Assembly (NCBI GenBank): GCA_003242525.1
Contig: QGUU01000021.1
Coordinates: 1 to 13,860, forward strand
Source of the DNA: Pseudomonadota bacterium
GTDB taxonomy: Bacteria > Pseudomonadota > Alphaproteobacteria > Rhizobiales > Rhizobiaceae
Direction: 5' to 3'
DNA: 13,860 nt
The translations under genes were made by a program, and so were the position numbers. Of the stretch, positions 1 through 13,435 are shown piece by piece. Below the pieces are notes generated by a model, which searched no databases, was not told the origin of the DNA, and saw nothing but the letters and a program-made list of their open reading frames with translations. The stretch's first letter is position 1. The number at the start of each line of letters is the position of its first letter.

Positions 1-1
1 T

Positions 2-1027
2 TCCTACATCGTCTACGCACCGCTCCTGCACGGCTGTACCACCGTGATGTTCGAAGGCAAGCCGATCGGCACGCCGGACGCCGGCACGTTCTGGCGCGTC
101 ATTGCCGACCACGGCGTCGTCGCCCTCTTCACCGCGCCCACGGCTTTCCGGGCCATCAAGGGACAGGACCCGCAGGGCTCCTTCGTTCCAAAATACGACC
201 TGTCGAAGTTCCGCACGCTTTTCCTGGCTGGCGAGCGCGCCGACCCGGAGACGATCCGATGGGCGGAGCGGACGCTCAAGGTTCCCGTGATAGACCATTG
301 GTGGCAGACCGAAACCGGCGCGCCCATCACGCAGAATCCTGTCGGATTGGGCATGCTGCCGGTGAAACACGGTTCGCCCGGCGTTCCGATGCCGGGCTTC
401 GACGTGCACGTGCTTGACGACGCTGGCAATGACGTGCCCCGGGGCACGCTGGGCAATGTCGTGATCAAGCTGCCGCTGCCGCCGGCCTGCCTGCCCACCC
501 TGTGGAACGCCGACCAGCGGTTCCGCCAGGCCTATCTCGACGAGTTCCCCGGCTACTACAAGACGGCCGACGCTGGCATGATCGATGAAGACGGCTACCT
601 CTTCGTGATGGCCCGTACCGACGACATCATCAATGTCGCAGGCCACCGGCTCTCGACCGGCGCGATGGAGGAAGTGCTGGCCGAGCATCCGGCCGTGGCC
701 GAATGTGCCGTCATTGGCGTCAACGACGATCTGAAGGGCCAGGCGCCGCTGGGTCTGGTCGTGCTGAATGCCGGCGCAACCTGCGATCACGAGACGCTGG
801 AAAAGGAAGCCGTGGCGTTGGTGCGGGAACGGATCGGACCGGTTGCCGCATTCCGCAAAGTGGTGGTCGTCAAGCGCCTGCCGAAGACCCGCTCGGGCAA
901 GATCCTGCGCAGCACGATGCAGAAAATTGCCGACCGCGAGGAATGGACCATGCCGGCCACGATAGACGATCCTGCCATACTCGACGAAATCGCAGAGGCG
1001 CTGGCAAAGCGGGGCACCGGCGCCTGA
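2..1027 (+). CDS. prpE: propionyl-CoA synthetase (acyl-CoA synthetase, AMP-forming), 3' part
   Basis: ANL-superfamily adenylate-forming ligase that converts propionate (or acetate), ATP and CoA to acyl-CoA in the cytoplasm. The window opens inside the gene; 341 codons remain of a family usually near 630 residues. Visible motifs: WWQTETG around 299-319 (adenylation motif), the hinge region ARTDDIINVAGHRLSTG around 610-660, and the C-terminal PKTRSGKILR with the catalytic, acetylation-regulated lysine codon at 899-901. The opening residues SYIVYAPLL and the EGKP-GTPDAG stretch look more like PrpE than Acs, which is why propionate is preferred; acetyl-CoA synthetase remains the alternative. The stop at 1025-1027 lies in the same frame as the permease that follows, 84 bp before that gene's likely start. 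PrpE assignment is family knowledge; substrate is inferred. Confidence 0.88.
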   Translation, partial: SYIVYAPLLHGCTTVMFEGKPIGTPDAGTFWRVIADHGVVALFTAPTAFRAIKGQDPQGSFVPKYDLSKFRTLFLAGERADPETIRWAERTLKVPVIDHWWQTETGAPITQNPVGLGMLPVKHGSPGVPMPGFDVHVLDDAGNDVPRGTLGNVVIKLPLPPACLPTLWNADQRFRQAYLDEFPGYYKTADAGMIDEDGYLFVMARTDDIINVAGHRLSTGAMEEVLAEHPAVAECAVIGVNDDLKGQAPLGLVVLNAGATCDHETLEKEAVALVRERIGPVAAFRKVVVVKRLPKTRSGKILRSTMQKIADREEWTMPATIDDPAILDEIAEALAKRGTGA

Positions 1028-1111
1028 TCGCATCAGGGGCCGGGCGGAACTCCGACGGCAACGAAAAAGCCATGTCGGACGTTTCTTCCGGCCAAGCGCG
1101 GAGACACCAGG

Positions 1112-2890
1112 CTGACACTGCCGCAGATCCTATCCATAACGGTCATCGCCCTGATGATGGCGGCGTTCGTCTGGGGCCGGTTTCGCTATGACCTTGTGGC
1201 TGCGCTCGCATTGTTGATAGGGCTTGCCGTCGGCGTCGTTCCGTTCGACCGTGCCTTTGGCGGCTTCAGCGATGACATCGTCATTATCGTCGGCTCGGCG
1301 CTGCTGGTCAGCGCCGGAGTGGCGCGCAGCGGCATCATGGAATACATGCTGCAGCACTACGCGCCAAACGTCGCGTCGCTGCGCGCGCAGCTTGCCCTTC
1401 TGGTCATCACGGTTGCGCTGCTATCGGCCTTCGTGAAGAACATCGGGGCGCTGGCGATCATGATTCCGATCGCCTTCCAGTTCGCACGGCGTTCGGGCGT
1501 CTCCCCATCCTCCTTCCTCATGCCGATGGCCTTCGCCTCCCTGCTCGGGGGGTTGATGACGCAAATCGGAACCTCGCCCAACATCGTCGTGTCGCGACTT
1601 CGCGGGGAGCTCACCGGCACACCGTTCAAAATGTTCGACTTCACCCCGGTGGGCCTCGCGCTGACGGCGGCGGGCGTCGTCTTCCTGATCCTGTTCTATT
1701 GGCTGCTGCCGCAACGGCAAAAGCAGAACCAGCCCCTGCACGAGGCGCTGGATGCCCAGAACTATGCCGCCGAGGCGAAGGTAAGCAAGGACTCGACCGT
1801 CGCGAACAAGCCGCTGGCCGAACTGCTGAAGATCGCGGCCGGCGAAAGTGCCATTACATCGGTTCTGCGCGCCGGCGGGCTGCGGCTGGCACCACTTCCC
1901 GACCTCAAACTGCGCGTCGGCGACATCGTGCTGATCGAAGGAAGCCCGGAAGCGCTCGACCGGCTGGTCGCCCAGGCCAAGCTCGATATCGGCGAGGAAC
2001 GCGCCTCGGCCAAGGAAAACGGCTCGAAATGGGAGACGGTGGCAATCGAAGCGGTGGTCGGCGAGAGTTCGAGTCTTATCGGCTGGTCGGCGCAGCGCCT
2101 GCTGCTCTACGACCGTTTCAACGTCAATCTGCTGGCCGTCAGCCGCAAGGGCGAGCGGCTCGACCAGCGCCTGGGAACGATCACGCTGCGTCTCGGCGAC
2201 GTTGTGTTGCTGCGTGGCAGCCGTGATGCGCTGCCCGAATTCCTGCGCGAGTTCGGCCTGCTGCCTCTTGCCGAGCGGCCGCTCCTGCTCGGCAGCGTCC
2301 GCCGCGGCCTCGTGCCGGTTCTGATCCTGGCCGCCGCGATGGGCTCCACCGCCTTCAGCCTGCTCCCGGTACAGATTGCCTTCTTCGCGGCGGCGGTAGC
2401 CATGGTGCTGTTCCGTGTCATCCCGCCGCGCGAGATCTATGCCGCGCTGGATGGGCCCATCCTCGTCATGCTGGCGTTGCTGATCCCGGTGGCCGACTCC
2501 CTGCGCCTCACCGGCGCAACCGATGTGCTGGCCTCCTATCTCGGAGAAATCGGGCAGGGCATGCCAGGCTTCGGCGCGCTGGCGCTGATACTGGTCACCG
2601 CAATGGCGGTAACCCCGTTCCTCAACAACGCGGCGACCGTGCTGGTGATGGCCCCGATCGCCGCAGGTTTCGCGGCCAATCTGGGATATCGTCCGGAAGC
2701 CTTCCTGATGGCCGTGGCGATCGGCGCGGGTTGCGATTTCCTCACCCCGATCGGCCACCAGTGCAATACGCTGGTGATGGGCCCGGGAGGCTATCGCTTC
2801 TCTGACTATCCCAGGCTCGGTCTGCCGCTTTCCCTGCTCGTCATTCTCGTCGCCGTCCCGGCGCTGATGCTGGTGTGGCCGCTTAAATAG
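1112..2890 (+). CDS. SLC13-family anion permease with two RCK_C (TrkA-C) domains
   Basis: Polytopic inner-membrane transporter of the divalent anion/sodium symporter (SLC13, CitMHS-like) superfamily. Numbered from ATG 1154, it has an N-terminal membrane half (about 12-185), two soluble RCK_C domains (about 205-282 and 293-372) and a C-terminal membrane half (about 378-578). Transporter signatures are GTSPN at 139-143, NNAAT at 491-495 and TPIGHQCNTLV at 531-541. The RCK_C pair suggests ligand gating; the substrate cannot be read from sequence (sulfate, dicarboxylate or another anion). Start choice: ATG 1154 has no Shine-Dalgarno and would remove most of a first hydrophobic helix. The CTG at 1112 is preceded by GGAGA at 1099-1103, 8 nt upstream, and begins LTLPQILSITVIAL, a good first membrane segment. 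No ATG, GTG or TTG occurs in frame between the prpE stop and 1154. Start is uncertain; family call is firm. Confidence 0.85.
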   Translation: MTLPQILSITVIALMMAAFVWGRFRYDLVAALALLIGLAVGVVPFDRAFGGFSDDIVIIVGSALLVSAGVARSGIMEYMLQHYAPNVASLRAQLALLVITVALLSAFVKNIGALAIMIPIAFQFARRSGVSPSSFLMPMAFASLLGGLMTQIGTSPNIVVSRLRGELTGTPFKMFDFTPVGLALTAAGVVFLILFYWLLPQRQKQNQPLHEALDAQNYAAEAKVSKDSTVANKPLAELLKIAAGESAITSVLRAGGLRLAPLPDLKLRVGDIVLIEGSPEALDRLVAQAKLDIGEERASAKENGSKWETVAIEAVVGESSSLIGWSAQRLLLYDRFNVNLLAVSRKGERLDQRLGTITLRLGDVVLLRGSRDALPEFLREFGLLPLAERPLLLGSVRRGLVPVLILAAAMGSTAFSLLPVQIAFFAAAVAMVLFRVIPPREIYAALDGPILVMLALLIPVADSLRLTGATDVLASYLGEIGQGMPGFGALALILVTAMAVTPFLNNAATVLVMAPIAAGFAANLGYRPEAFLMAVAIGAGCDFLTPIGHQCNTLVMGPGGYRFSDYPRLGLPLSLLVILVAVPALMLVWPLK

Positions 2891-2927
2891 GCTCCCCCTC
2901 ACGCGCGCAGCGAGCGCCTGCTTGTTG

Positions 2928-2945
2928 CTGACAGACTGCTGTCAG
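2928..2945. promoter_or_regulatory. operator 1: 18-bp inverted repeat upstream of the DUF1127 gene
   Basis: The sequence reads CTGACAGACTGCTGTCAG: perfect 6-bp arms CTGACA/TGTCAG with a 6-bp spacer. It sits where the -35 region would be, exactly 11 nt before the -10 element at 2957-2962. The second copy at 3836-3853 has the same geometry, and both are followed by GGAGC. The likely ligand is the YafY/WYL regulator encoded at 3923-4639; that is inference from position and repetition. Confidence 0.75.
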
Positions 2946-2953
2946 GAGCGCTG

Positions 2954-2962
2954 TGCGACAAT
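2954..2962 (+). promoter_or_regulatory. extended -10 promoter for the DUF1127/DJ-1 operon
   Basis: TGC followed by GACAAT gives a TGn-extended -10 (2954-2962). No good -35 hexamer is visible; the operator occupies that space, which fits either a repressed extended -10 promoter or one needing an activator. Expected transcript start is near 2969, leaving a leader of about 22 nt that contains the strong Shine-Dalgarno AGGAGGT at 2980-2986. Confidence 0.5.
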
Positions 2963-2990
2963 GCTCCTGCCTGAACGAGAGGAGGTAGCC

Positions 2991-3164
2991 ATGCCAGGTT
3001 TTGTAGCGAACATGCGCGTCTATTTCGGCCGCATCCGGACGATGCGCAAGGAGATCCGTACTCGGCGCCTGCTCGACAGCCTGCCCCCGCACATCCAGGC
3101 GGACATCGGATGGTCAGGCTCCGGTTTTCCCGGTCGCCGCTCTGCGGTTGATGAATATCGATGA
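2991..3164 (+). CDS. DUF1127 small protein
   Basis: 57-residue basic protein. The C-terminal half, RTRRLLDSLPPHIQADIGW, matches the DUF1127 pattern (arginine-rich helix, then L-x-DIGW/L). DUF1127 proteins are small and arginine-rich; some alphaproteobacterial members have been linked to RNA turnover and to phosphate or carbon regulation, but the role here is unknown. ATG 2991 is chosen because AGGAGGT lies 4-5 nt before it; an in-frame ATG further upstream at 2922 would precede the operator and promoter. The gene is first after operator 1 and is followed 74 bp later by the DJ-1/PfpI gene, so the two are probably cotranscribed. Confidence 0.8.
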   Translation: MPGFVANMRVYFGRIRTMRKEIRTRRLLDSLPPHIQADIGWSGSGFPGRRSAVDEYR

Positions 3165-3238
3165 AATATTTCGATTGGACAATCGGGGCAGCGTCACCCA
3201 CATAGCAGACCCTACGGACCGGATGAGGAAAGGCTCGC

Positions 3239-3826
3239 ATGCCTGGGATCAAGACCATCGGTTTCGTGTTCATCCCCGGGGTGGCCGACTGGGAATATGG
3301 TCTGCTCTCGGCTTCCGCGGTGGAATGGTTTGGCGCCAGGGCAGTCCCGCTCACGCCCGACGGCGGGACGGTAAGGTCCGCCAGCGGATTCCGGATTGCT
3401 GCCGAGCGTCCGTTGGATGCGGCCGCCAACGGCGATCTCGATGCGGTTGCAGTGATCGGCTCCGACAACTGGGTCGGCGAAGACGCGCCTGACATCGGCG
3501 AACTGCTGACGAGCGTAAACGGGCGTGGAGGCGTGATCGGGGGCATTTGCGCCGGCACGCTCGCGTTGGCACGCGCTGGCCTTTTTGCATCAGCAGCACA
3601 CACCAGCAACGGCCGCGACTGGATCCTGCATCACCTGCCGGACTATGTCGGGCGGGACAATTACCGGAACGTGCCGCATGCAGTTGCCGACAGCAAAATC
3701 GTGTCGGCGCCAGGCTCGGCTCCGGGAACCTTTGCCGTGGCATTCCTGGCCGCGCTGTTTCCCGAAAGGACCGAAACACTGACGCAGATGCGGACGATGT
3801 TCGCGCGGGAGCATGCAGCGGGATGA
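3239..3826 (+). CDS. DJ-1/PfpI (ThiJ) family protein
   Basis: 195-residue cytoplasmic protein of the class I glutamine amidotransferase-like DJ-1/PfpI superfamily. The nucleophile-elbow motif GGICAGT places the reactive cysteine at C104. E19 in DWEYG and H121 in AAHTSNG fit the DJ-1 arrangement (human DJ-1 E18, C106, H126). Members act as deglycase/glyoxalase-like enzymes, chaperones, proteases or amidases; which applies here is not visible. Length is normal for a one-domain member and there is no AraC-type HTH fusion. GAGGAAAGG lies shortly before ATG 3239. It sits between DUF1127 and the WYL regulator and probably shares the operator 1 promoter. The 74-bp gap before it holds the palindrome GAAATATTTC (3163-3172), of unknown meaning. 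Confidence 0.85.
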   Translation: MPGIKTIGFVFIPGVADWEYGLLSASAVEWFGARAVPLTPDGGTVRSASGFRIAAERPLDAAANGDLDAVAVIGSDNWVGEDAPDIGELLTSVNGRGGVIGGICAGTLALARAGLFASAAHTSNGRDWILHHLPDYVGRDNYRNVPHAVADSKIVSAPGSAPGTFAVAFLAALFPERTETLTQMRTMFAREHAAG

Positions 3827-3835
3827 GATCCTCTC

Positions 3836-3853
3836 CTGACAACATGCTGTCAG
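3836..3853. promoter_or_regulatory. operator 2: 18-bp inverted repeat upstream of the WYL regulator gene
   Basis: The sequence reads CTGACAACATGCTGTCAG. Its outer arms are identical to operator 1 and its centre is CATG, so 16 of 18 positions are self-complementary. It shares TGCTGTCAGGAGC with operator 1 and also lies exactly 11 nt before a TGn-extended -10. Its position before the regulator gene suggests autoregulation. Confidence 0.75.
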
Positions 3854-3861
3854 GAGCCGCG

Positions 3862-3870
3862 TGCCATACT
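3862..3870 (+). promoter_or_regulatory. extended -10 promoter for the WYL regulator gene
   Basis: TGC followed by CATACT (-10 at 3865-3870), in the same register to the operator as the promoter at 2954-2962. The predicted start near 3877 leaves a leader of about 46 nt before ATG 3923. Confidence 0.5.
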
Positions 3871-3922
3871 GCCATGAAATTGTACTGGAGCAGGACGATC
3901 ATCAACGGCGAGGAACAGAACT

Positions 3923-4639
3923 ATGCGACGCGCCGACAGGCTCTTTCAGATTGTCCAGCATTTGCGTGGCGGCCGACTGGTCACCGCGCAGAAGCTGGGC
4001 GCATGGCTCGAGGTATCCGAGCGCACCATCTATCGCGACATAGCCGATCTGCAGGCGACCGGGGTGCCGATCGAAGGCGAGGCCGGTGTCGGCTACATGA
4101 TGCGGGAAGGCTTCGAACTACCGCCCCTGATGTTCACCCGTGACGAGATCGTGGCGCTGGTTGCGGGCGCACGCATGGTGCGCGCCTTCGGCGGAGCAGC
4201 CATGGCACGGGCGGCCGATGAAGCTCTGGTAAAGATCGGCGCTGTCTTGCCAGACAATGAGCGGGACCGCATCGCCCGCACCGAAATCCACACGCCGATG
4301 TGGGTGGTGAGCGACGAGGCTCGCGCCAATATCGATCTTATCGAGCGCGCCGTGGAGAAGCGTCAGGTGTTGACCATCGAATATCGCGACGAGGCCGGCC
4401 GCATCACCTCGAGGAACGTGCGGCCGCTCGGCCTCTGGTTCTGGGGCAAGGTGTGGACACTGGTTGCCTGGTGCGAGATGCGCAACGATTTCCGCGCCTT
4501 CCGCATCGACCGCATCGGATCGATCATAGCTTCCGGCCTCGTCTTCAAGCCGGAGCGGGGCAAGCAGCTCGCCGATTTCTACCGTGCCGTGGAGCGCAGC
4601 GAAGCCTACGGCATGGGGTCCACCGCCCGCGGCGCATAG
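3923..4639 (+). CDS. YafY-type HTH-WYL transcriptional regulator
   Basis: 238-residue DNA-binding regulator. An HTH_11/DeoR-like winged helix covers about residues 5-60, with the recognition-helix region LEVSERTIYRDIADLQ at 29-44. A WYL domain spans about 135-205, with WFWGKVWTLVAWCEMR at 172-187 and FRIDRI at 193-198. WYL domains are ligand-sensing modules (nucleic acid or nucleotide in characterised cases); this ligand is unknown. GAGGA lies about 10 nt before ATG 3923. An inverted repeat overlaps its own promoter, with a matching one before the DUF1127/DJ-1 pair, so it most likely controls itself and those genes. Whether it represses or activates is not visible. A weak hairpin follows the stop. 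Confidence 0.88.
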   Translation: MRRADRLFQIVQHLRGGRLVTAQKLGAWLEVSERTIYRDIADLQATGVPIEGEAGVGYMMREGFELPPLMFTRDEIVALVAGARMVRAFGGAAMARAADEALVKIGAVLPDNERDRIARTEIHTPMWVVSDEARANIDLIERAVEKRQVLTIEYRDEAGRITSRNVRPLGLWFWGKVWTLVAWCEMRNDFRAFRIDRIGSIIASGLVFKPERGKQLADFYRAVERSEAYGMGSTARGA

Positions 4640-4653
4640 GGTCACGGACGCTG

Positions 4654-4678
4654 AAGGGCCGATCAAAGAGTCGGCCTT
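4654..4678 (+). terminator. weak terminator-like hairpin after the WYL regulator
   Basis: The arms are AAGGGCCGA and TCGGCCTT around an 8-nt loop, with one bulged G. There is almost no T-tract after it, so intrinsic termination would be inefficient. It lies between the regulator stop and the rpmJ promoter. Confidence 0.4.
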
Positions 4679-4684
4679 CGCCGG

Positions 4685-4712
4685 TTGACAGCGCAAGCGC
4701 TCGTCGTTTAAG
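4685..4712 (+). promoter_or_regulatory. rpmJ promoter
   Basis: TTGACA (4685-4690), a 16-nt spacer, then TTTAAG (4707-4712). The perfect -35 fits a strong housekeeping promoter for a ribosomal protein. The expected start is near 4719, giving a leader of about 70 nt that contains the hairpin at 4729-4748. Confidence 0.6.
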
Positions 4713-4728
4713 AGCCACGCACGAATTC

Positions 4729-4748
4729 GGCGCGCCTTGCGGCGCGCC
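4729..4748 (+). promoter_or_regulatory. leader hairpin of rpmJ
   Basis: Two copies of the self-complementary octamer GGCGCGCC flank TTGC, forming an 8-bp all-GC stem with a 4-nt loop, followed by TTTCT. It lies between the promoter and the start codon of rpmJ. It could be an attenuator, an autoregulatory L36 or ribosomal-protein site, or a terminator for upstream transcription. The role is inferred. Confidence 0.5.
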
Positions 4749-4790
4749 TTTCTGGTTGGCCCGTAGGGGCACAAATTGACGGGCAGGACA

Positions 4791-4916
4791 ATGAAGATCA
4801 AGAACTCGCTCAAGGCGCTCAAGGCGCGTCACCGCGAAAACCAGCTGGTTCGCCGCAAGGGCCGCGTTTACATCATCAACAAGTCCGATCCGCGCTACAA
4901 GGCGCGCCAGGGCTGA
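4791..4916 (+). CDS. rpmJ: 50S ribosomal protein L36, zinc-independent form
   Basis: 41-residue highly basic protein beginning [14 protein letters not shown] and ending RYKARQG, typical of alphaproteobacterial L36. It is a component of the large ribosomal subunit. It contains no cysteine, so it is the C-minus (zinc ribbon-free) form, as in E. coli YkgO. AGGA lies just before ATG 4791. The gene stands alone rather than in a ribosomal protein operon, with its own TTGACA promoter and a leader hairpin. It is too short for most ORF finders and easily missed. Confidence 0.95.
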
Positions 4917-4921
4917 TGGTG

Positions 4922-4940
4922 AGCCGCCGGCACGGCGGCT
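4922..4940 (+). terminator. hairpin after rpmJ
   Basis: AGCCGCC and GGCGGCT form a 7-bp stem around a 5-nt loop, 5 nt after the rpmJ stop. There is no T-tract, so it is either a weak terminator or an RNA-stabilising 3' hairpin. Confidence 0.45.
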
Positions 4941-4961
4941 TGCACTCACGCACAATTCAGT

Positions 4962-4989
4962 TTGACGATCCGTTGGCAGGGACTAGAGT
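4962..4989 (+). promoter_or_regulatory. probable promoter of the TPR gene
   Basis: TTGACG (4962-4967), a 16-nt spacer, then TAGAGT (4984-4989). The start point would fall at about 4996-4997, on the likely ATG of the TPR gene. Confidence 0.4.
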
Positions 4990-4996
4990 CCTTTCC

Positions 4997-5590
4997 ATGC
5001 GGGTCGTTTTCGCTTTCTTCGCCGCCTTCCTGGCTTTCCCGACGCTGGTTGCCGCCGCGGCTGCGGCCCCGCCTGCAAGCAATGTCGTGCCCGGCGATTC
5101 CGTCTCGCGTGCCGAACGGCTGGACAAGCTGTTTTCAGAACTCAAGCGGGCGAGCAACCAGAACGCGGCAGGGCGGATCGCGAACAGCATCTCGCAAGTC
5201 TGGAACGATTCCGGCTCAGCCTCGATCGACCTGATGATGCTGTGGTCGGAGAAGGCCATGCGGGAACAGAAATTCGACGTGGCGCTGGATTTTCTGGATG
5301 AAGTGGTGACCTTGCGACCGGAGTTCGTTGAAGGCTGGAACAGACGCGCCACCGTGCATTTCATGATGAAGAACTTTGCGAAGTCGATGGCCGATATCGA
5401 CAAGACGCTGCAGCTAGAGCCGCGCCACTTCGGCGCCCTTTCGGGGCTTGCACAGATCATGACCGAAACCGGCCGCAAGGAACAGGCGCTCAGCGCCTGG
5501 CTGCGGGTGCTCGATCTCTACCCCATGCTGCGCAATGCACAGGCGCAGGTGGCCGCTCTTTCCGAAGAACTCGCCGGCGAAAACATCTGA
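4997..5590 (+). CDS. exported tetratricopeptide-repeat protein
   Basis: 197 residues. The N-terminus MRVVFAFFAAFLAF and an alanine run to about residue 25 form a signal peptide, so the protein is probably periplasmic. Helical repeats of TPR type lie at about 79-110, 112-145 and 146-178, with the consensus-like ending ...DKTLQLEPRHFGAL at about 134-148. TPR domains bind protein partners; no enzymatic motif is seen and the partner is unknown. ATG 4997 is chosen because it begins the signal peptide directly. An in-frame ATG at 4916 overlaps the rpmJ stop and would bury the signal. There is no Shine-Dalgarno before 4997, and the predicted transcript start coincides with it, suggesting leaderless translation. 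It stands alone, 86 bp before the MgtC-like gene. Confidence 0.8.
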   Translation: MRVVFAFFAAFLAFPTLVAAAAAAPPASNVVPGDSVSRAERLDKLFSELKRASNQNAAGRIANSISQVWNDSGSASIDLMMLWSEKAMREQKFDVALDFLDEVVTLRPEFVEGWNRRATVHFMMKNFAKSMADIDKTLQLEPRHFGALSGLAQIMTETGRKEQALSAWLRVLDLYPMLRNAQAQVAALSEELAGENI

Positions 5591-5676
5591 CTGTTCCGGT
5601 ATCGAGCTTTGTTCGATGTTCCTGGCGGGAACCGGTTCTCTTGCCGGCCGTTACCGGAAGCATCGAGGCGCGCTGC

Positions 5677-6249
5677 ATGGAAAACCTTGTCGACGAGTTC
5701 GGCCATCCCACCCATATTCCCTTTCAGGTGAGCGCTGCGCGATTATTGCTGGCGGCCTTGTTTGGTGCGGCCATCGGCTTCGAGCGTGAATGGCGCAACC
5801 GACCCGCTGGGCTGCGCACGCACATTCTTGTCTGCGTTGCCGCGGCATGTTTTGCGTTGCTCACCATCGAGATCGTGCACGCGCCCATGTTCGCGGCGCC
5901 GCTGACGCATGAGGCTACCCGCTTCGACCCCATCCGGCTGATCGAGGCGGTGACTGCCGGCGTTGCCTTTCTCGCGGCAGGCGTGGTGATCTTCACTCGC
6001 GGCCAGGTACATGGCCTGACCACGGGTGCCGGCATGTGGCTGGCTGGCGCAATCGGCGTGGCCTGCGGACTCGGCCTGTGGCAGATTGCCTTGCTGGCGA
6101 CGGTCATGGCGCTTCTCGTCCTGGGCCTGCTACAGGTCTTCGAAAGTCGGGCCGGCCTCAACGAGGGTGCGGATTTTGACATTTCCCGGAAAGAACGCAG
6201 GGACTCGCAAGAGGGCAGTTCTGCCGGGCACGACCGCCTTTCAGGATGA
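5677..6249 (+). CDS. MgtC/SapB family membrane protein
   Basis: 190 residues with four to five hydrophobic segments (about 20-36, 49-68, 90-107, 116-133, 136-154). Family signatures are the glycine/arginine block IGFEREWRNRPAGLRTH at 33-49 and GAGMWLAGAIGVACGLG at 118-134. The hydrophilic tail after about 160 is poorly conserved. MgtC proteins modulate F-type ATP synthase and magnesium/acid adaptation in pathogens, while many environmental paralogues (YhiD/SapB type) have no known role. ATG 5677 is preferred, with CGAGGCG about 10 nt upstream; a TTG at 5641 adds 12 non-hydrophobic residues and has no ribosome binding site. No clear promoter was found in the 86 bp before it. Confidence 0.85.
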   Translation: MENLVDEFGHPTHIPFQVSAARLLLAALFGAAIGFEREWRNRPAGLRTHILVCVAAACFALLTIEIVHAPMFAAPLTHEATRFDPIRLIEAVTAGVAFLAAGVVIFTRGQVHGLTTGAGMWLAGAIGVACGLGLWQIALLATVMALLVLGLLQVFESRAGLNEGADFDISRKERRDSQEGSSAGHDRLSG

Positions 6250-6297
6250 GGCCCTCTCCTGATGCCTGCCCGGGACGAGGCGGCCACGCCCCTATCA

Positions 6298-6326
6298 TTG
6301 CCCGCGCGCGAAAACATTGGTATTGA
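6298..6326 (+). promoter_or_regulatory. possible promoter upstream of the small ORF and leuC
   Basis: TTGCCC (6298-6303), a 17-nt spacer, then TATTGA (6321-6326). The predicted start at about 6333 coincides with the ATG of the 38-codon ORF. Confidence 0.4.
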
Positions 6327-6332
6327 GCCCGC

Positions 6333-6449
6333 ATGGAAGAGCTTTTCGGCGACCCCGCCTACAAGAAGTTCGTGCTGCAGGACCGCAAGCGCCTGCCGGC
6401 ACGTTTCTTTGCGCGTGTCTGCGGCGCACTGACCAGCCGACTCGGCTGA
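6333..6449 (+). CDS. 38-residue hypothetical small protein upstream of leuC
   Basis: Small basic protein beginning MEELFGDPAYKKFVLQDRKR and ending ALTSRLG; no family is recognised. It has an acidic N-terminus, a KK/RKR basic centre and an amphipathic C-terminus, with no signal peptide. Codon use is normal for the window (G/C-rich third positions). There is no good Shine-Dalgarno, but a plausible promoter places the transcript start at its ATG. It ends 63 bp before leuC. Five of the 38 residues are leucine and these are scattered, so a classical leucine attenuator peptide is not supported. It may be a real conserved small gene or a chance ORF. Confidence 0.4.
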   Translation: MEELFGDPAYKKFVLQDRKRLPARFFARVCGALTSRLG

Positions 6450-6512
6450 TCCGCTTCCCCGCACCGGCGCTTGCCGGACCTTTTCCATCCTTACATCGAC
6501 GGATTTACGCAA

Positions 6513-7921
6513 ATGAGCGCACCGCGCACCCTCTACGACAAGATTTTCGACGACCACGTGGTTGACCGCCAGGAAGACGGAACCTGCCTTCTGTGGATCG
6601 ACCGCCATCTCGTGCATGAGGTGACCAGCCCACAGGCTTTCGAAGGTCTGCGCATGGCCGGCCGCAAGGTCCGCCATCCGGAGAAGACGCTTGCCGTGGT
6701 CGACCACAACGTGCCGACCTCCCCGGACCGCGTGAACGGCATCAAGAACGAGGAGAGCCGCATCCAGGTCGAGGCCCTGGCGAAGAACGCGGCCGACTTC
6801 GGGGTCGAGTATTATTCCGAGAAGGACCGCCGCCAGGGCATCGTCCACATCATCGGGCCGGAACAGGGCTTCACCCTGCCCGGCATGACGATTGTCTGCG
6901 GCGACAGCCATACCTCGACCCACGGCGCTTTCGGCGCACTTGCCCATGGCATCGGGACTTCGGAGGTCGAGCATGTGCTCGCCACGCAGACGCTGATCCA
7001 GAAAAAGGCGAAGAACATGCTGGTGCGCGTCGACGGGCGGCTTCCCGAAGGCGTTACGGCCAAGGACATCATCTTGCCATCATCGGCGAGATCGGTACTG
7101 CGGGCGGCACCGGCTATGTCATCGAATATGCCGGCGAGGCGATCCGCTCGCTGTCCATGGAAGGCCGCATGACCGTGTGCAACATGTCCATCGAGGGTGG
7201 CGCGCGCGCCGGCATGATCGCGCCTGACGAGACCACCTTCGCCTATGTCAAGGACAAGCCGCGCGCGCCGAAGGGCGAGGCCTGGGATGCCGCGCTTTCC
7301 TACTGGAAAACGCTGAAGTCCGATGAAGGCGCCCATTTCGACAAGGTCGTGGTGCTGGACGCCGCCTCCCTTCCGCCGATCGTGACCTGGGGATCCTCGC
7401 CCGAGGATGTCGTGTCGGTCACCGGCGTGGTACCGGACCCGGATCAGATCGAGGACGAGAACAAGCGCAATTCCAAGAAGCGCGCCCTTGAATATATGGG
7501 GCTTCAACCGGGCACGAAGATCACCGACATCGAGCTCGACCGCGTCTTTATCGGCTCCTGCACCAATGGCCGCATCGAGGACCTGCGCGCAGCAGCCGCC
7601 GTCGCGAAGGGACGCAAGGTGCATCCGCGCGTGAGCGCCATGATCGTGCCGGGCTCAGGGCTCGTGAAGGCACAGGCCGAGGCGGAGGGACTGGACAGGA
7701 TATTCATCGAGGCCGGCTTCGACTGGCGCGAACCAGGCTGCTCCATGTGCCTCGCCATGAACGACGACCGCCTGAGGCCGCATGAGCGCTGCGCCTCCAC
7801 CTCGAACCGGAATTTCGAGGGCCGCCAAGGCTTCAAGGGACGTACCCATCTCGTCTCGCCGGCGATGGCCGCGGCCGCCGCAATTGCGGGCCATTTCGTC
7901 GATATTCGCGACTGGAAATAA
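6513..7921 (+). pseudogene. leuC: 3-isopropylmalate dehydratase large subunit, frameshifted by a 1-base deletion
   Basis: Aconitase-family large subunit of isopropylmalate isomerase, which with LeuD interconverts 2- and 3-isopropylmalate in leucine synthesis. Frame 1 covers 6513 to about 7076 ([15 protein letters not shown]... to ...GVTAKDIIL). The protein then continues in another frame from 7079 ([19 protein letters not shown]...) to the stop at 7919-7921. One missing base at about 7076-7077 (TTGCC where TTGGCC or CTCGCC is expected) explains it. Restoring it gives 470 codons (469 residues), the usual rhizobial length. The [4Fe-4S] ligands are intact: GSCTNG with Cys codon 7559-7561, and GCSMC with Cys codons 7739-7741 and 7748-7750. 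Without correction the product ends at 7172 after about 219 residues and is dead. No other lesions are present, so a sequencing or assembly error is at least as likely as a true mutation. Confidence 0.92.
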
Positions 7922-7945
7922 GTTTTTCCGGGCAATGCGCAGACC

Positions 7946-7971
7946 AAAGCCCCGCCGCGCGGCGGGGCTTT
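7946..7971. terminator. bidirectional rho-independent terminator
   Basis: AAAGCCCCGCC and GGCGGGGCTTT form a perfect 11-bp stem around GCGC. The A and T runs at either foot allow it to work in both directions. It serves leuC on the left and the minus-strand gene ending at 7985. Confidence 0.85.
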
Positions 7972-7984
7972 GCACTTTGAGAAC

Positions 7985-8293
7985 TCAAGGGCGGCGAACC
8001 AGTTCGTAGAAGCTGTCACGTCGGCCGGGCAGTTCCTCGGCCACGACCAGCGCCAGTTCATCAGCATCGAAGATCCTGAACCACTCGTCCCATTCCACCA
8101 GATCGTATCCACCCGCATTCGGCGGTCGCTCGGGTCGGTCCACGTCCTCATACGCCGCTTCCCCGAAAACGATACGCAGCATGGGTTGTGTGCCAGATTG
8201 TGGAGAAACATCCACGATGGCTGGATGCCCAGCGCGCCCGGCAGCCCAGTCCCGGATGGCTTCATGCTCGATCAACGTCACCGTGTTCGCCAT
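7985..8293 (-). CDS. conserved hypothetical small acidic protein
   Basis: 102-residue soluble protein, MANTVTLIEHEAIRDW to ...FYELVRRP. It is acidic and rich in W, D and E, with a YDLVEWDEWFRIFD block near the centre-right. It resembles an uncharacterised protein common in rhizobia; no domain or function is recognised. The start at 8293 is chosen over a longer reading to 8320 because AGGAGG (complement of 8302-8307) lies 8 nt before it. It converges on leuC, with the terminator between them, and diverges from the diguanylate cyclase gene across 139 bp. Confidence 0.8.
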   Translation of the reverse strand: MANTVTLIEHEAIRDWAAGRAGHPAIVDVSPQSGTQPMLRIVFGEAAYEDVDRPERPPNAGGYDLVEWDEWFRIFDADELALVVAEELPGRRDSFYELVRRP

Positions 8294-8432
8294 TCCTGTC
8301 GCCTCCTGTTGCGACCGCAACGCCTTCTAGGGCCGCCGGTTCCCTGGGCGATCGCACTTCGCATCCATGTTTAACGCCTTGTTTGCGCCTGTTGTGTAGA
8401 AAAATTCCTGAAGAAAACAGACAGGCGGCGCC

Positions 8433-9656
8433 TTGGACACGGGCCTTCTCGTAGCCCTGCTCAATCCCGGAATCGCGACCGTCCTGGCGGCCGCGTTCCT
8501 TCTTCTTTTCCTGCATCAGAAAGATCGCCCCTATCTGGCGCTCCTATGCGCTGGCTACATCTGTTCGGCGCTGGGCTTCCTGCTGCAATATTTCATCCTT
8601 CCCATAGGCTTCCTGCCGACCAAGTTGATCTCGGCCATCGCCTTTTTGCTGGCGGTCTGCCTTATCGGAAACGCGCTTGTCGCCCGCCACCACCGCCCGC
8701 TTCCCTGGCGCGGAACGGCCGCAGCCGCGCTGGCCGGCCTGGGTGCCTATTGCTGGTTCATGTTCATGGTGCCCGACCTGACATGGCGCGTCCTGTCGCT
8801 GAACCTCGCATGCGGAGCGGTCTCCCTGCTGATCGGGTTCGAACTGAGGAGAATTCCCAAGGCCAACTTCATCGACCGGCTGCTCAATATCTTCGTTCTG
8901 CTGGCAGCGGCAAACTTGATCCTGCGTCCCCTGCTTGTCATCACCATCGACGGACCCTTCGCCGGCTATGACACCTTCTATGGCTCGACATACTGGACAA
9001 CCATGGTCCTGTCGCATGCCCTGGTGTCGCTCATGCTCGCACTCACCTTGTTCACGGCGTCGGCATTCGACATCGTGTCGGCGCTTCGTTCCGATTCATA
9101 CACCGACCCGCTGTCAGGCCTGTTCAATCGCCGCGGCTTTGAGGAGCAGAGTACGGAAGTGCTGGACCATTGCGCCAGGCTGGGCTTGCCCGCCTCGCTC
9201 ATCCTTGCCGATCTCGACCATTTCAAATCCATCAATGACACGCATGGCCATGAAGCGGGCGACCGGGTGATCATGGACTTTGCCAGGCGTTTGCGCGAGG
9301 CAGCAGGAACCCGCGCCATAGCCGGCCGGCTGGGAGGCGAGGAATTCGCGGTGCTGCTGCCGCTGACCGATCTCGCCGGCGCTCGGCTTCTGGCCGAGGC
9401 TTTGCGCACGGCGTTTGCCGCCGCCACGATCGAGGGCCTGCCTGCCGGAACACGAACCACGGCAAGTTTCGGCGTTGCCGCCCGTTCAGGCGACGAGCCA
9501 TTGGTTCCGCTCCTGCGGCGCGCGGACGACGCGCTCTACAAGGCCAAGCAGAGCGGTCGAGATGGCGTACGCGTCTCCTATGAAAGGCCCCCGGCGCCCG
9601 GGTCGACCACTGCGAATCTGGCCGGAACGAACCGGGGCTTCAGCGGCATGGGCTGA
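8433..9656 (+). CDS. membrane-anchored diguanylate cyclase (GGDEF)
   Basis: 407 residues that synthesise cyclic di-GMP from two GTP. The N-terminal half has about six to seven membrane helices (roughly 5-28, 34-55, 62-83, 95-113, 118-136, 150-171, 189-212), an uncharacterised MASE-like sensor. The GGDEF domain spans about 220-385. Its active-site motif is GGEEF at 301-305, with metal-binding D260 in LILADLDHF, N268 in SINDTHGHEAGD, and DDALYKAK at 365-372. All cyclase residues look intact. The allosteric I-site RxxD, expected five residues before GGEEF, is absent: the two key positions are G and A. The start is TTG at 8433, which opens directly on MDTGLLVALL, with CAGGCGG a few nt upstream. 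No EAL domain is present. Its end overlaps the convergent gene by 17 bp. Confidence 0.9.
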   Translation: MDTGLLVALLNPGIATVLAAAFLLLFLHQKDRPYLALLCAGYICSALGFLLQYFILPIGFLPTKLISAIAFLLAVCLIGNALVARHHRPLPWRGTAAAALAGLGAYCWFMFMVPDLTWRVLSLNLACGAVSLLIGFELRRIPKANFIDRLLNIFVLLAAANLILRPLLVITIDGPFAGYDTFYGSTYWTTMVLSHALVSLMLALTLFTASAFDIVSALRSDSYTDPLSGLFNRRGFEEQSTEVLDHCARLGLPASLILADLDHFKSINDTHGHEAGDRVIMDFARRLREAAGTRAIAGRLGGEEFAVLLPLTDLAGARLLAEALRTAFAAATIEGLPAGTRTTASFGVAARSGDEPLVPLLRRADDALYKAKQSGRDGVRVSYERPPAPGSTTANLAGTNRGFSGMG

Positions 9657-9996
9657 GTTCAGGCATCTCGCCATCTGAAAGGCCGTACATGTAGCTTCGG
9701 CCTTTGACGAAAACCGGCGGGCGATAGCAGTCGCGCTGAACCCTACCGACAGATTCCTCGTAATATTCGACGTGAGGGTGAAGCTCGCCCGCCGCCAGAT
9801 AGCCGGCCATCTTCTTCGCCAACGCACCCTCCCCGACCACGATGCGCTTGTAACCTGCAGCGCTTTCGATGACGAGATTGCCGAACGAATCCGCATAGAC
9901 CCGATCCCGCGACCGCGCTTCGGCGGGAATGGTCACGATTGCCGTCCAGCCGGCAAGCAGAACGACCGAGGTGAAAAGTCGGAACTGTGAACGCAT
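9640..9996 (-). CDS. secreted hypothetical protein
   Basis: 118 residues. MRSQFRLFTSVVLLAGWTAIVTIPAEA (described as residues 1-27, hydrophobic core about 8-22) is a signal peptide with an AEA cleavage site, so the mature protein of about 91 residues is periplasmic or secreted. Confidence 0.7.
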   Translation of the reverse strand: MRSQFRLFTSVVLLAGWTAIVTIPAEARSRDRVYADSFGNLVIESAAGYKRIVVGEGALAKKMAGYLAAGELHPHVEYYEESVGRVQRDCYRPPVFVKGRSYMYGLSDGEMPELSPCR

Positions 9997-10040
9997 GGCG
10001 CGTCTCCCTGGGCAGCGATTCGTGCCTCCTGTCCGATACG

Positions 10041-10056
10041 TTAACCTTTTCTTAAC
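10041..10056. promoter_or_regulatory. CtrA-type binding site
   Basis: TTAACCTTTTCTTAAC is an exact match to the TTAA-N7-TTAAC consensus of the alphaproteobacterial cell-cycle regulator CtrA. A third TTAA at 10062-10065 follows with 6-nt spacing. The site lies 45-60 bp upstream of the minus-strand start at 9996 and about 150 bp upstream of the lipoprotein start at 10209. It could overlap the -35 region of the minus-strand gene. The consensus is known; occupancy is inferred. Confidence 0.55.
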
Positions 10057-10158
10057 CATTGTTAAGAGCTTTGGATGGCTCCATACCGTTCACTCGCGGA
10101 TATGGTTAACGCGCCCGTTCTGGTGCGCTCGAACATTCATCACGGAACGCCATACCCC

Positions 10159-10188
10159 TTGATCCCGGCGAACGGGGGCCTGTACTGT
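10159..10188 (+). promoter_or_regulatory. probable promoter of the lipoprotein gene
   Basis: TTGATC (10159-10164), an 18-nt spacer, then TACTGT (10183-10188), just before the GGGAGAA ribosome binding site. It is a moderate match. Confidence 0.4.
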
Positions 10189-10208
10189 CAGCGTGGGAGA
10201 ATCACCAT

Positions 10209-10577
10209 ATGGCGTTACGCCGAACATTTCGGGTGGCGCCTGTCCTTGCCCTGGCGCTCAGCACGGCAGCCTGCGTCGCCCAGCCTGGCCGCCCCACACA
10301 CGGGCCCGGTGGCGGTCCGGTCACCGGCGCGGAGAGCAACAGCACCCCGCAGCCTCGCTCCGCGCGATATGGCTGCGCGGACGGCAGCACCATTACGATA
10401 GAGAATTTCGGCAGTTCCATCCGCCTGAGGGATGCCGAAGGCGCGGAGGCAAGCCTGCCGGCCTCGCCACCCAACCAGAGCAGCCGATTTGGCGTCGAGC
10501 ATGACGCGGTCGTCATTGACGGGCGCGAAGCGCTCATCATGACCGGAGGGCGCGCTCCGCTCAGCTGCAGGCGTTGA
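10209..10577 (+). CDS. MliC-like lipoprotein (putative lysozyme inhibitor)
   Basis: 122 residues. An N-terminal lipoprotein signal ends in STAAC with the lipidated cysteine at C22, so it is anchored in the outer or inner membrane. A Gly/Pro linker (about 25-50) follows. The C-terminal domain (about 53-120) starts YGCADGSTITI and ends ALIMTGGRAPLSC, with C56 and C120 placed as in the disulfide of the MliC/PliC lysozyme-inhibitor fold; VVIDGREALI stands where MliC has its KG-EA strand. The characteristic tryptophan is missing, so the match is suggestive only. GGGAGAA precedes ATG 10209. It is divergent from the secreted protein at 9640-9996 across 212 bp. Function is inferred; lipoprotein export is well supported. 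Confidence 0.7.
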   Translation: MALRRTFRVAPVLALALSTAACVAQPGRPTHGPGGGPVTGAESNSTPQPRSARYGCADGSTITIENFGSSIRLRDAEGAEASLPASPPNQSSRFGVEHDAVVIDGREALIMTGGRAPLSCRR

Positions 10578-10674
10578 GCCGGCAAATCTCCGCAAAGGGC
10601 CTCGATCAAAACGATTGAACCCGCGTGATCGATTAAATCAGACTAAATGACGTTGCCGAAACGGTTTTCCGGCT

Positions 10675-10702
10675 TTGACGCGGTGCGAAAAGAGGGCTAG
10701 AA
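10675..10702 (+). promoter_or_regulatory. probable sdh operon promoter
   Basis: TTGACG (10675-10680), a 16-nt spacer, then CTAGAA (10697-10702). It lies in the 208-bp spacer before sdhC and leaves a leader of about 75 nt. The rest of the spacer (10578-10674) is relatively AT-rich around 10605-10650, with no regulator site I can name. Confidence 0.45.
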
Positions 10703-10741
10703 AACCCGCGTCCAATGTCGCCTTCGGAAATCCGCATGCCG

Positions 10742-10763
10742 TTTTCCGCCTTGGCGCGGAAAA
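10742..10763 (+). promoter_or_regulatory. sdhC leader hairpin
   Basis: TTTTCCGC and GCGGAAAA form a perfect 8-bp stem with a 6-nt loop in the 5' leader, ending 22 nt before ATG 10786 and just before the GGGGGAG ribosome binding site. A role in mRNA stability or translation is possible. Confidence 0.4.
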
Positions 10764-10785
10764 GGACGCCACTACTGGGGGAGCC

Positions 10786-11199
10786 ATGAGCCATTCACCA
10801 GCCACCCGAGGTCCGGCGCTGCGCGCAAGACCGCTTTCGCCTCACCTCACCATCTATCGCTGGCCCATCACCATGACGATGTCGATCATGCATCGCATCA
10901 CGGGCGGTGCGCTCTATGTCGGCGCTGTTCTCGTGGTGTGGTGGCTGGTTGCGGCAGCCACATCCGAGAGTCAGTTCGGCCTTATCGACTGGCTGGTCCG
11001 TTCGTGGTTCGGCAAGCTGGTGCTGTTCGGCTACACCTGGGCGATGTTCCACCACATGCTGGGCGGTCTCCGGCATCTGATATGGGATACCGGCGCCGGG
11101 ATGGACAAGGCCGGCGCATCGAAGCTGGCCTGGGCCACCATTGTCGGGTCCGTACTGCTGACACTGCTCGTCTGGGCAGTCTACATGGCCATTGCGTGA
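10786..11199 (+). CDS. sdhC: succinate dehydrogenase cytochrome b556 subunit
   Basis: 137-residue membrane anchor of complex II with three transmembrane helices (about 36-57, 72-98, 114-135). The signature RPLSPHLTIYRWPITMT at 15-31 leads into SIMHRITG at 33-40; S33 and R37 belong to the quinone pocket. H90 in FHHMLGGLRH aligns with the E. coli haem ligand H84. GGGGGAG precedes ATG 10786. It is the first gene of sdhCDAB, with sdhD starting 7 nt after its stop. Confidence 0.95.
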   Translation: MSHSPATRGPALRARPLSPHLTIYRWPITMTMSIMHRITGGALYVGAVLVVWWLVAAATSESQFGLIDWLVRSWFGKLVLFGYTWAMFHHMLGGLRHLIWDTGAGMDKAGASKLAWATIVGSVLLTLLVWAVYMAIA

Positions 11200-11206
11200 G
11201 GCTGAC

Positions 11207-11590
11207 ATGAGCGACATGAGAACACCTCTTGCCAGGGTGCGCGGGCTTGGCGCCGCACGCGAGGGCACAGGACAGTTCTGGCGCATCCGGCTTTCATCCG
11301 TTGCCCTCATACCGCTGTCCCTGTTTGTCATCGGCTGGATACTGTCCCTGAAGGGAGCTTCCTATGACGAGGTCCGCGCCTCGCTCTCGCAGCCGGTCGT
11401 CACGCTGATCGTCGCGCTCTTCATTGTGGTGAGCCTCGACCACATGCGGCTCGGCATGAAGGAAATCATAGAAGACTACGCACATGCCGAGGGCGGCCGG
11501 CTGACGCTCCTTGTCCTCAACACGTTCTTTACAGTAGCACTCGGCGTCGTGTCGCTCTTCGCGCTCGCCAGGCTGGCATTCGGAGGTTGA
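11207..11590 (+). CDS. sdhD: succinate dehydrogenase hydrophobic membrane anchor subunit
   Basis: 127 residues with three transmembrane helices (about 29-48, 63-80, 100-123). The block [13 protein letters not shown] at 79-91 holds the haem-ligand equivalent H79 and the D90-Y91 quinone-site pair, with the same 11-residue spacing as E. coli H71 and D82-Y83. It pairs with SdhC to bind haem b and ubiquinone in the inner membrane. ATG 11207 is chosen for the GAGG just upstream, overlapping the sdhC stop. sdhA starts 2 nt after its stop. Confidence 0.93.
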
Positions 11591-11592
11591 GC

Positions 11593-13425
11593 ATGGCCGG
11601 GCAGGAGAAAAAGGCGGGGCCCGCCTACACCTATGTCGACCACAAGTTCGACGTCGTCGTCGTGGGCGCCGGCGGCGCGGGGCTGCGAGCCACGCTCGGC
11701 ATGGCCGAGCAGGGCCTGCGCACCGCCTGCATCACCAAGGTGTTCCCCACCCGCTCGCACACGGTCGCCGCGCAAGGCGGCATTGCAGCCTCGCTGCAGA
11801 ACATGGGCCCCGACTCCTGGCAGTGGCATCTGTATGACACGGTCAAGGGCTCCGACTGGCTGGGCGATGTCGACGCCATGGAATACATGGTGCGCCACGC
11901 GCCGGAAGCCGTCTACGAGCTCGAGCACTATGGCGTTCCCTTTTCCCGCACCGAGGAGGGAAAGATCTATCAGCGGCCGTTCGGCGGCCACATGATGAAC
12001 TTCGGCGACGGTCCGCCGGTGCAGCGCACCTGCGCGGCGGCCGACCGCACCGGCCATGCCATATTGCACACGCTCTACGGCCAGTCGCTGAAGCACAAGG
12101 CGCAGTTCTTCATCGAATATTTCGCGCTCGACCTCATCATGGAGCCGGACGGCACCTGCACCGGCGTGGTCGCCTGGAACCTCGATGACGGCACCATTCA
12201 CCGCTTCTCGGCCAAGATGGTCGTGCTGGCGACCGGCGGCTATGGCCGCGCCTATTTCTCGTGCACCTCGGCCCACACCTGTACCGGTGACGGCGGCGGC
12301 ATGGTGGCACGTGCGGGCCTGCCCCTGCAGGACATGGAATTCGTCCAGTTCCACCCGACGGGCATCTATGGCGCGGGCTGCCTCATCACTGAGGGCGCGC
12401 GCGGCGAAGGTGGCTATCTCGTCAATTCCGAGGGCGAGCGCTTCATGGAGCGTTACGCGCCCTCGGCGAAGGATCTCGCCTCTCGCGACGTGGTCTCGCG
12501 CTGCATGACGCTGGAAATCCGCGAGGGGAGAGGAGTCGGCAAGAACAAGGATCACATCTACCTGCATCTCGATCACCTCGACCCCGCCGTGCTGCATGAG
12601 CGCCTGCCGGGCATTTCCGAGTCGGCGAGGATTTTTGCCGGTGTGGACGTGACTAAGGAGCCGATCCCGGTGCTGCCCACGGTCCACTACAATATGGGCG
12701 GCATCCCTACCAACTACTGGGGCGAGGCGCTGAACCCGACGCCGGACAGTCCCGACCGGGTCACGCCCGGTCTGATGGCGGTGGGCGAAGCCGGCTGCGC
12801 CTCGGTCCATGGCGCCAACAGGCTCGGCTCCAACTCGCTGATCGACCTGGTCGTGTTCGGCCGGGCCGCGGCGATCCGCGCCGGCCAGGTGGTCGACCGC
12901 AACGCGCCGGTTCCCTCGCCCAATAAGGCCTGCCTCGAAAAGATCATGGATCGTTTCGACCGGCTGCGCCACGCCAACGGCCCTCAGCCCACGGCCGTGC
13001 TGCGTGAAAAAATGCAGCGCGCCATGCAGGAGGATGCGGCGGTGTTCCGCACCCAGGAGACTCTCGAGGCCGGATGCAGGCGCATCACTCAGATCTGGGG
13101 CGAGTTGAAGGACCTGCGGGTGACAGACCGCTCGATGATCTGGAATTCCGATCTGGTGGAGACGCTGGAACTGGAAAATCTGATGGCCAACGCCATAGCC
13201 ACCGTCCACAGCGCCGAGGCGCGCAAGGAGAGCCGCGGCGCGCATGCGCGCGAGGACTTCACGGAGCGCGACGATGTCAACTGGCGCAAGCATACCCTGG
13301 CGCACGTGAGCGCTGACGGCAGGGTAACGCTCTCTTATCGTCCGGTGCACACCGAAACGATGCTTCCTGTCTCGGAAGGCGGCATCGACCCGGCCAAGAT
13401 CGCGCCCAAGGCGCGGGTGTATTGA
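11593..13425 (+). CDS. sdhA: succinate dehydrogenase flavoprotein subunit
   Basis: 610-residue catalytic subunit of complex II that oxidises succinate to fumarate through covalently bound FAD on the cytoplasmic face. The Rossmann motif VVGAGGAG lies at 23-30. The covalent-FAD histidine is H56 in [11 protein letters not shown]. The active-site residues H254 (FHPTG) and R298 (SRDVVSR) match E. coli H242 and R286. A second FAD-binding block, [20 protein letters not shown], is complete. Length and motifs are full, with no lesions. The GGAGGT ribosome binding site overlaps the sdhD stop, indicating tight translational coupling. sdhB begins 10 nt after the stop. Confidence 0.97.
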
Positions 13426-13435
13426 GGATCGCAGA

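Follow-up and report, generated by a model that had tools for sequence, protein, structure and literature searches.

The 13,860-nucleotide stretch of a Rhizobiaceae genome analyzed here (assembly GCA_003242525.1, contig QGUU01000021.1, positions 1 to 13,860, forward strand; hereafter, the window) carries two copies of the inverted repeat CTGACA-N6-TGTCAG, one preceding the genes of a DUF1127-like mini-protein and a DJ-1 family protein and the other preceding the gene of a YafY-type regulator with a helix-turn-helix (HTH) and a WYL domain. We consider it moderately probable that this protein is a WYL activator like PafBC, DriD, and SiwR that regulates its own gene and controls nucleotide-excision repair and electrophile detoxification. 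The regulator would bind both dyads and control its own promoter and the DUF1127-like/DJ-1 transcript; further targets would be uvrB and a fatty-acid desaturase gene in the same genome, joined in relatives by some uvrA genes and some genes of glutathione S-transferases and VOC glyoxalase-like proteins. The elements concerned are the following:

2925 to 2948, plus strand: predicted operator 1, TTG-CTGACA-GACTGC-TGTCAG-GAG, a 24-bp dyad whose left outer arm is degenerate (TTG instead of CTC) and whose right arm is intact
2954 to 2962, plus strand: extended -10 element TGC-GACAAT of the DUF1127-like/DJ-1 promoter, 11 nt past TGTCAG, with the N6 of the dyad at the -35 position
3833 to 3856, plus strand: predicted operator 2, CTC-CTGACA-ACATGC-TGTCAG-GAG, a perfect 24-bp dyad
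3862 to 3870, plus strand: extended -10 element TGC-CATACT of the regulator promoter, 11 nt past TGTCAG
3923 to 4639, plus strand: HTH_11-WYL (YafY-type) regulator of 238 residues (PF08279, 60.4 bits against a cut-off of 25; PF13280, 66.2 bits against a cut-off of 21.8)

The pair of exact repeats reported in a preliminary description of this DNA is borne out: they lie at 2928-2945 and 3836-3853, a mismatch-free copy occurs nowhere else in the window, and 200 dinucleotide shuffles produced 0. The window sites and the sequences of relatives reveal a longer element, the 24-bp dyad CTCCTGACA-N6-TGTCAGGAG, so that the operator as first delimited was too short. The GGAGC described as a shared flank does follow both sites, but it is not a separate feature: operator 2 is perfect over 24 bp once the outer arms are counted, and GGAG thus belongs to the outer arm of the longer dyad. 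Operator 2 begins six bases past the DJ-1 stop codon, and its 9-bp perfect stem and 6-nt loop could in principle fold, as would suit RNA hairpins (terminators or attenuators) or repeats of the repetitive extragenic palindromic kind. We regard such an origin as very improbable, given that no T-run follows the dyads in the window sequence, that the 61 family genomes surveyed hold 0 to 8 copies each, at orthologous places, and that their spacing to the uvrB promoter shows phasing. Furthermore, at site 1 a conserved -10 element, a probable start, and a ribosome site lie past the dyad, which places it upstream of the transcript. With no T-run and a promoter downstream of the dyad, the hairpin or terminator reading was rejected.

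Evidence linking the dyads to the regulator comes from their conservation beside its relatives. In a sample comprising the best 80 of 196 loci that encode a relative, mostly from Mesorhizobium, exactly two exact sites lie upstream of the regulator gene in 77 loci and one in the remaining 3 (in L056, the contig begins 986 bp before the gene), and no exact site was found elsewhere in the fetched stretches of these loci. The pattern CTGACA-N3-TGC-TGTCAGGAG was detected in 44 of 199 genomes of the family and the 24-bp dyad in 30 of 385 genomes of the class, the reversed controls giving 0 in both searches. Among 60 dyad loci, 30 from each search with the window's own locus counted once in each, a YafY homolog is encoded within the 3-kb stretch in 46 (20/30 at the family level and 26/30 at the class level); the 14 loci devoid of one include two, L102 and L107, in which the usual layout is cut off. 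The 24 class-level sites that precede YafY proteins of 42 to 71% identity also share downstream positions (A+30 in 21, G+27 in 19, T+34 and T+26 in 14 each).

The exact dyad extends beyond the class, since it is found upstream of a VOC-YafY gene pair in records of Klebsiella and Enterobacter (Gammaproteobacteria) and of Sandaracinus (Myxococcota). Four of the seven named records lack an exact dyad: it appears with one mismatch in Terrarubrum (L290) and with two on a Mesorhizobium plasmid (L289), and no dyad within two mismatches was found in Vibrio (L287) or on Agrobacterium pAt (L288). The two enterobacterial records (L285 and L291), both labeled as plasmids although the 5.4-Mb Klebsiella record is perhaps a chromosome, have the order secD-secF-VOC-YafY-tsx with an exact dyad, and the VOC-YafY module and secDF may be constant neighbors there. 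The lack of conservation beside orthologs that would have refuted the original suggestion was thus not observed: the repeats accompany YafY homologs down to ∼42% identity, both throughout the class and outside it, in keeping with the idea that one regulator controls both transcripts, including its own. On these comparisons of sequence, the conserved pair of dyads very probably represents operators of the adjacent HTH-WYL regulator.

The geometry of the two promoters is also conserved, at least in part. In both promoters of the window, 20.5 bp separate the -10 element from the centre of the upstream dyad, which thereby comes to lie over the -35 position; no consensus -35 is present at either, and the DUF1127-like/DJ-1 promoter has no -35 match. 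The 11-nt register to a TGn-extended -10, first noticed in the preliminary description, is found at both window sites and is fixed among relatives at site 1 (-10 offset of 29 in 78/78 loci, window included), but it is partly variable at site 2, where the offset is 29 in 44/78 loci, 27 in 24/78, and takes other values in 10/78. The 74 distinct site-1 sequences have an invariant core, an almost invariant N6, and a variable flank upstream of the outer arm, and past the site they share a conserved block consisting of TGtGcGATAnT, CA at the probable start, and AGGAG.

The preliminary description placed only genes of this locus in the regulon, which we predict to reach DNA repair as well. The genome of the window (a 3.29-Mb assembly, 90.7% complete) contains four exact CTGACA-N6-TGTCAG sites and none of the reversed pattern; the two outside the window lie upstream of uvrB and between the genes of an XRE-type regulator and a fatty-acid desaturase. 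Among family orthologs, taken as the best loci of 61, 33, and 59 matching genomes for uvrB, the desaturase gene, and uvrA, respectively, the exact dyad is upstream of uvrB in 19/30 (0/600 shuffles) and of the desaturase gene in 13/28 (0/560 shuffles; two weak matches, L203 and L204, were dropped from 30 loci), and in neither case does it occur inside the gene. The uvrA upstream regions contain an exact dyad in 4/30 and a one-mismatch dyad in 5/30, against 0 exact and 0.2% with one mismatch in mononucleotide shuffles. These dyads adjoin a LexA-like box, so that uvrA of some relatives has both elements; in G043, the coordinates place one more exact dyad before uvrA, and the incomplete assembly of the window's own genome yielded no uvrA match. 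The LexA box is a direct repeat, GTTC-N7-GTTC. It is absent from all 30 uvrB upstream regions, which by this box sets uvrB outside the SOS (LexA) group, and a LexA-like box, in a slightly looser pattern, is present in 28/30 uvrA upstream regions. Judged by sites alone (uvrB 19/30 and uvrA 4/30 exact), the regulator would share DNA-repair targets with the WYL damage activators, and we hold with good confidence that uvrB is a predicted member of the regulon.

Additional sites precede glutathione S-transferase-like genes in four loci (L099, L237, L244, and L246, L244 being the one scanned with Pfam), and scattered single sites lie before a glyoxalase-like gene, ligA, a formaldehyde-activating-type enzyme, and a protein without a Pfam match that we take to be DUF1579-like. 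The gene preceding the ligA site is presumably recN, and we assume the other single-site neighbors to be an acyltransferase and a basic-membrane-protein neighbor. The dyad upstream of the desaturase gene, which diverges from that of the XRE-type regulator (L001 1421-1438; L097, L098, L111; L175-L190), has another conserved sequence next to it, TGCGCA...TTGTCGCATTGC; in several genomes the dyad also continues into a different inverted repeat, GGAATC...GATTCC.

Sites and regulator also occur together across genomes. Among 61 family genomes, all 29 with a close ortholog of the regulator contain one or more sites (109 in total), compared with 12 of the 32 without such an ortholog (17 sites; Fisher p 3.8e-8), and an ortholog is present in 19/19 genomes with the uvrB dyad versus 1/11 lacking it (p 3.7e-7), although along the uvrB tree the ortholog changes once and the site twice, so that no more than one or two events underlie these Fisher values. 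The uvrB-type pattern matched in 24 of the 61 genomes, 23 with a close ortholog and one, G011, without. YafY paralogs of ∼40 to 46% identity adjoin the same dyad in some genomes, and this fact, together with G011, raises the alternative that a paralogous WYL protein with the same motif is the one to which the dyads at uvrB, uvrA, and the desaturase gene belong, the window's regulator serving its own locus only. We judge this improbable, because the window's genome has a single YafY match at E≤1e-20 for four exact sites, albeit in an assembly that is 90.7% complete, and because a close ortholog accompanies the uvrB site in 19/19 genomes.

At uvrB, 19 aligned loci share the conserved arrangement CTTTCCATT...CCATATT, with the ATG 12 to 13 nt past the C of CATATT. 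The uvrB mRNA may be leaderless. A pattern search for the dyad followed by CCATATT, covering distances of 53.5 to 83.5 bp only, gave matches in 137/394 family genomes and 0 in the control. In the 136 matches analyzed (out of 138 rows, one YafY-type and one overlapping reverse match having been dropped), the dyad centre lies 59.5 to 61.5 bp (31 matches), 69.5 to 72.5 bp (81), or 81.5 to 82.5 bp (20) from the -10 element, with 4 others and none at 63.5 to 68.5 or 75.5 to 80.5 bp. The spacings thus cluster in steps of ∼10.5 to 11 bp around a dyad ∼70 bp upstream of the -10 element. Counted at the genus level, 27 distances depart from the main mode, and in 24 of them the shift matches a 10.5-bp step to within 1.5 bp (binomial p 3e-9 under a uniform null), a value that ignores phylogeny and depends on a tolerance chosen after the distances were known. 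Helical phasing is required for upstream activation from one helix face, as established for class I activators, and the phased spacing is a sign that the regulator may act on uvrB in this way.

The regulator itself presumably forms a homodimer. Its Pfam WYL match ends at residue 201 of 238; 37 residues and no long extension follow, at the position where WYL DNA-damage activators carry the C-terminal WCX extension. R187, R191, and R194 are invariant in an alignment of 24 homologs, many of them from operator-bearing loci, and align with arginines of a chain of a PafBC complex (7p5x); they may correspond to the conserved arginines with which the WYL domains of DNA-damage activators bind single-stranded DNA. 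The best fold matches of a structure model (predicted local distance difference test score, 79; predicted template modeling score, 0.59) are PafBC, BrxR, CapW, and DriD, with a high root-mean-square deviation across the whole chain, and the model assigns the regulator to the WYL fold of the PafBC/DriD/SiwR group.

The regulator could act as an activator or as a repressor. In the second case it would shut off its own promoter and the detoxification genes until a small electrophile or metabolite lifted the block, and the sites at uvrB and the desaturase gene would be secondary. In favor of this view, both window promoters have their -35 region under the dyad, the site-2 spacing varies, and the neighbors encode VOC, DJ-1, and glutathione S-transferase enzymes; self-control at such a dyad is typical of repressors, and BrxR and CapW, whose structures match the model, are WYL repressors. 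Simple occlusion, however, would not need a uvrB dyad ∼70 bp upstream of the -10 element moving in steps of ∼10.5 to 11 bp; the absence of a consensus -35 is expected of an activator-dependent promoter, and DriD, PafBC, and SiwR are activators. We therefore consider a repressor unlikely, and activation, a somewhat safer claim than the explanation as a whole, reasonably probable. At the DUF1127-like promoter and its own, the activator would work as at DriD sites, from a -35-centred dyad followed by an extended -10; at uvrB it would work from one helix face. Its signal, read by the WYL domain and possibly in the form of single-stranded DNA, would most likely be DNA damage or damage-causing electrophiles, a proposal to which we give about even chances.

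Besides the phylogenetic limits given above, several observations weigh against the explanation as a whole. A dyad over the -35 is also the classical position of a repressor, which the variation in site-2 spacing suits equally well. An in-register extended -10 was found neither at uvrB nor at the desaturase gene, so one mechanism is unable to fit all targets, and two uvrB loci depart from the phasing, L162 at 74.5 bp and L150 at 52.5 bp, the latter both out of phase and outside the searched range. The uvrB site of G011 suggests that paralogs may share the operator. As to the protein, the high deviation of the fold matches indicates that the domains are common and their arrangement is not, and with only 37 residues past the WYL domain, the regulator may bind another ligand than DriD or PafBC do.

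The other two genes of the locus, which share the transcript downstream of operator 1, are as follows:

2991 to 3164, plus strand: DUF1127-like mini-protein of 57 residues, with an AGGAGG ribosome site immediately upstream
3239 to 3826, plus strand: DJ-1/PfpI family protein of 195 residues (PF01965, E=2.7e-11, 44 bits against a cut-off of 26.6)

The mini-protein scores 14.4 bits against PF06568 (DUF1127), below the gathering cut-off of 23.3, and four of its orthologs gave one subthreshold match and three none. Its C-terminal LPPHIQADIGW presumably reflects a resemblance to that family, and "DUF1127-like" is thus a safe label, a firm DUF1127 assignment being out of reach of the Pfam cut-off. 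The best solved relative of the DJ-1 protein by sequence is 2fex, and we take its GICAG to contain a nucleophile-elbow-like cysteine. At cut-off, NCBIfam models matched none of the four proteins tested. In the 80 loci, the DUF1127-like gene is present in 78, a 136-residue protein in 67, the DJ-1 gene in 38, and a VOC gene in 16, and the SLC13/DASS-like gene that lies upstream in the window was found within 2.7 kb in just 2. The 136-residue protein (MVKSWNDRLN...) is encoded between operator 2 and the regulator gene in relatives (e.g., L020 3518-3928), an interval in which the window has no open reading frame for it. It has no Pfam match and no significant relative in the Protein Data Bank (best E 0.25), and is hypothetical wherever named among 120 homologs listed of 560; it may resemble alkyltransferase-like proteins. 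A closed module of DUF1127, DJ-1, and WYL genes was rejected on the presence of DJ-1 in 38/80 loci only. The motif accordingly does not travel with a complete trio, as DJ-1, VOC, and the 136-residue protein come and go and the same dyad is kept at uvrB and the fatty-acid desaturase gene. Of the compact stress or metabolite-damage response originally imagined, the damage theme is consistent with our results and the compactness is not supported by them.

Two stretches of the window call for caution. From ∼13742 it reads CTGTCTCTTATACAAATC..., which we take to be close to a Nextera/Tn5 adapter end within a gene that is presumably sdhB, and this likeness makes the last 120 bases (13742-13860) a probable adapter-derived chimera. 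Within 6471-7921, two overlapping open reading frames in different frames (6471-7172 and 7157-7921) presumably both belong to leuC, encoding the large subunit of isopropylmalate isomerase, the split of which makes a frameshift or an assembly error likely.

Several described WYL regulators resemble the one proposed here. According to the available portions of PMC12340889, DriD of Caulobacter crescentus is a WYL activator of an SOS-independent DNA-damage response whose sites are centred on the -35 at a constant distance from a weak extended -10, like the sites at the DUF1127-like and regulator promoters and unlike the uvrB site, which lies further upstream. The DriD operator given there, ATACGAC-N7-GTCGTAT, differs from this dyad and was rejected as the motif here; by its operator, the regulator does not classify as a DriD ortholog. 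DriD has ∼325 residues versus 238 here. In the same portions, the driD promoter is active regardless of DriD whereas we predict autoregulation, and the targets named are didA, bapE, recJ, dnaG, and CCNA_03891/01149, with uvrA and uvrB not among them. PafBC, the mycobacterial DNA-damage activator, acts by sigma adaptation, as far as the available excerpts of the source describe it, and is a heterodimer or fused pair, in contrast to the one short protein here. SiwR of Mycobacterium smegmatis, as described in the available parts of PMC10693628, is likewise a WYL activator of an adjoining operon, with a glyoxalase-like neighbor in some genomes; it recognizes a 19-bp imperfect palindrome spanning -10 to -35 and binds single-stranded DNA. 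It differs in being actinobacterial and in targeting DinB/YfiT-like genes, with no link to uvrB named in those parts (PMC10693628). By analogy, and within what these partial sources cover, SiwR is the nearest described logic. In Klebsiella, Enterobacter, and Sandaracinus, the YafY-family proteins encoded next to VOC genes share the domain plan, the gene pair, and the exact dyad, and are known by annotation only; the literature searched, subscription papers being outside its scope, describes no operator or regulon for them. The regulator would thus be a WYL-domain damage-response regulator in kind, with an operator, a lineage, and a uvrB link that are new as far as the searched literature goes.

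With this dyad, the large and mostly unstudied family of YafY-type WYL proteins gains a concrete and portable operator for which any genome can be scanned, and uvrB gains a predicted controller where LexA apparently does not control it. Two ideas become testable now: that electrophile detoxification and nucleotide-excision repair are coupled by a WYL protein, and that WYL activators use both -35-centred and upstream helical-face modes. Tentatively, and at slightly less than even odds, we propose that in Mesorhizobium and its relatives nucleotide-excision repair would be under a second, LexA-independent damage regulon, in which an ancestral detoxification activator, with the operator-VOC-YafY arrangement found from Myxococcota to Enterobacteriaceae, was wired onto uvrB and partly onto uvrA, such that detoxification and adduct repair may be switched on together.
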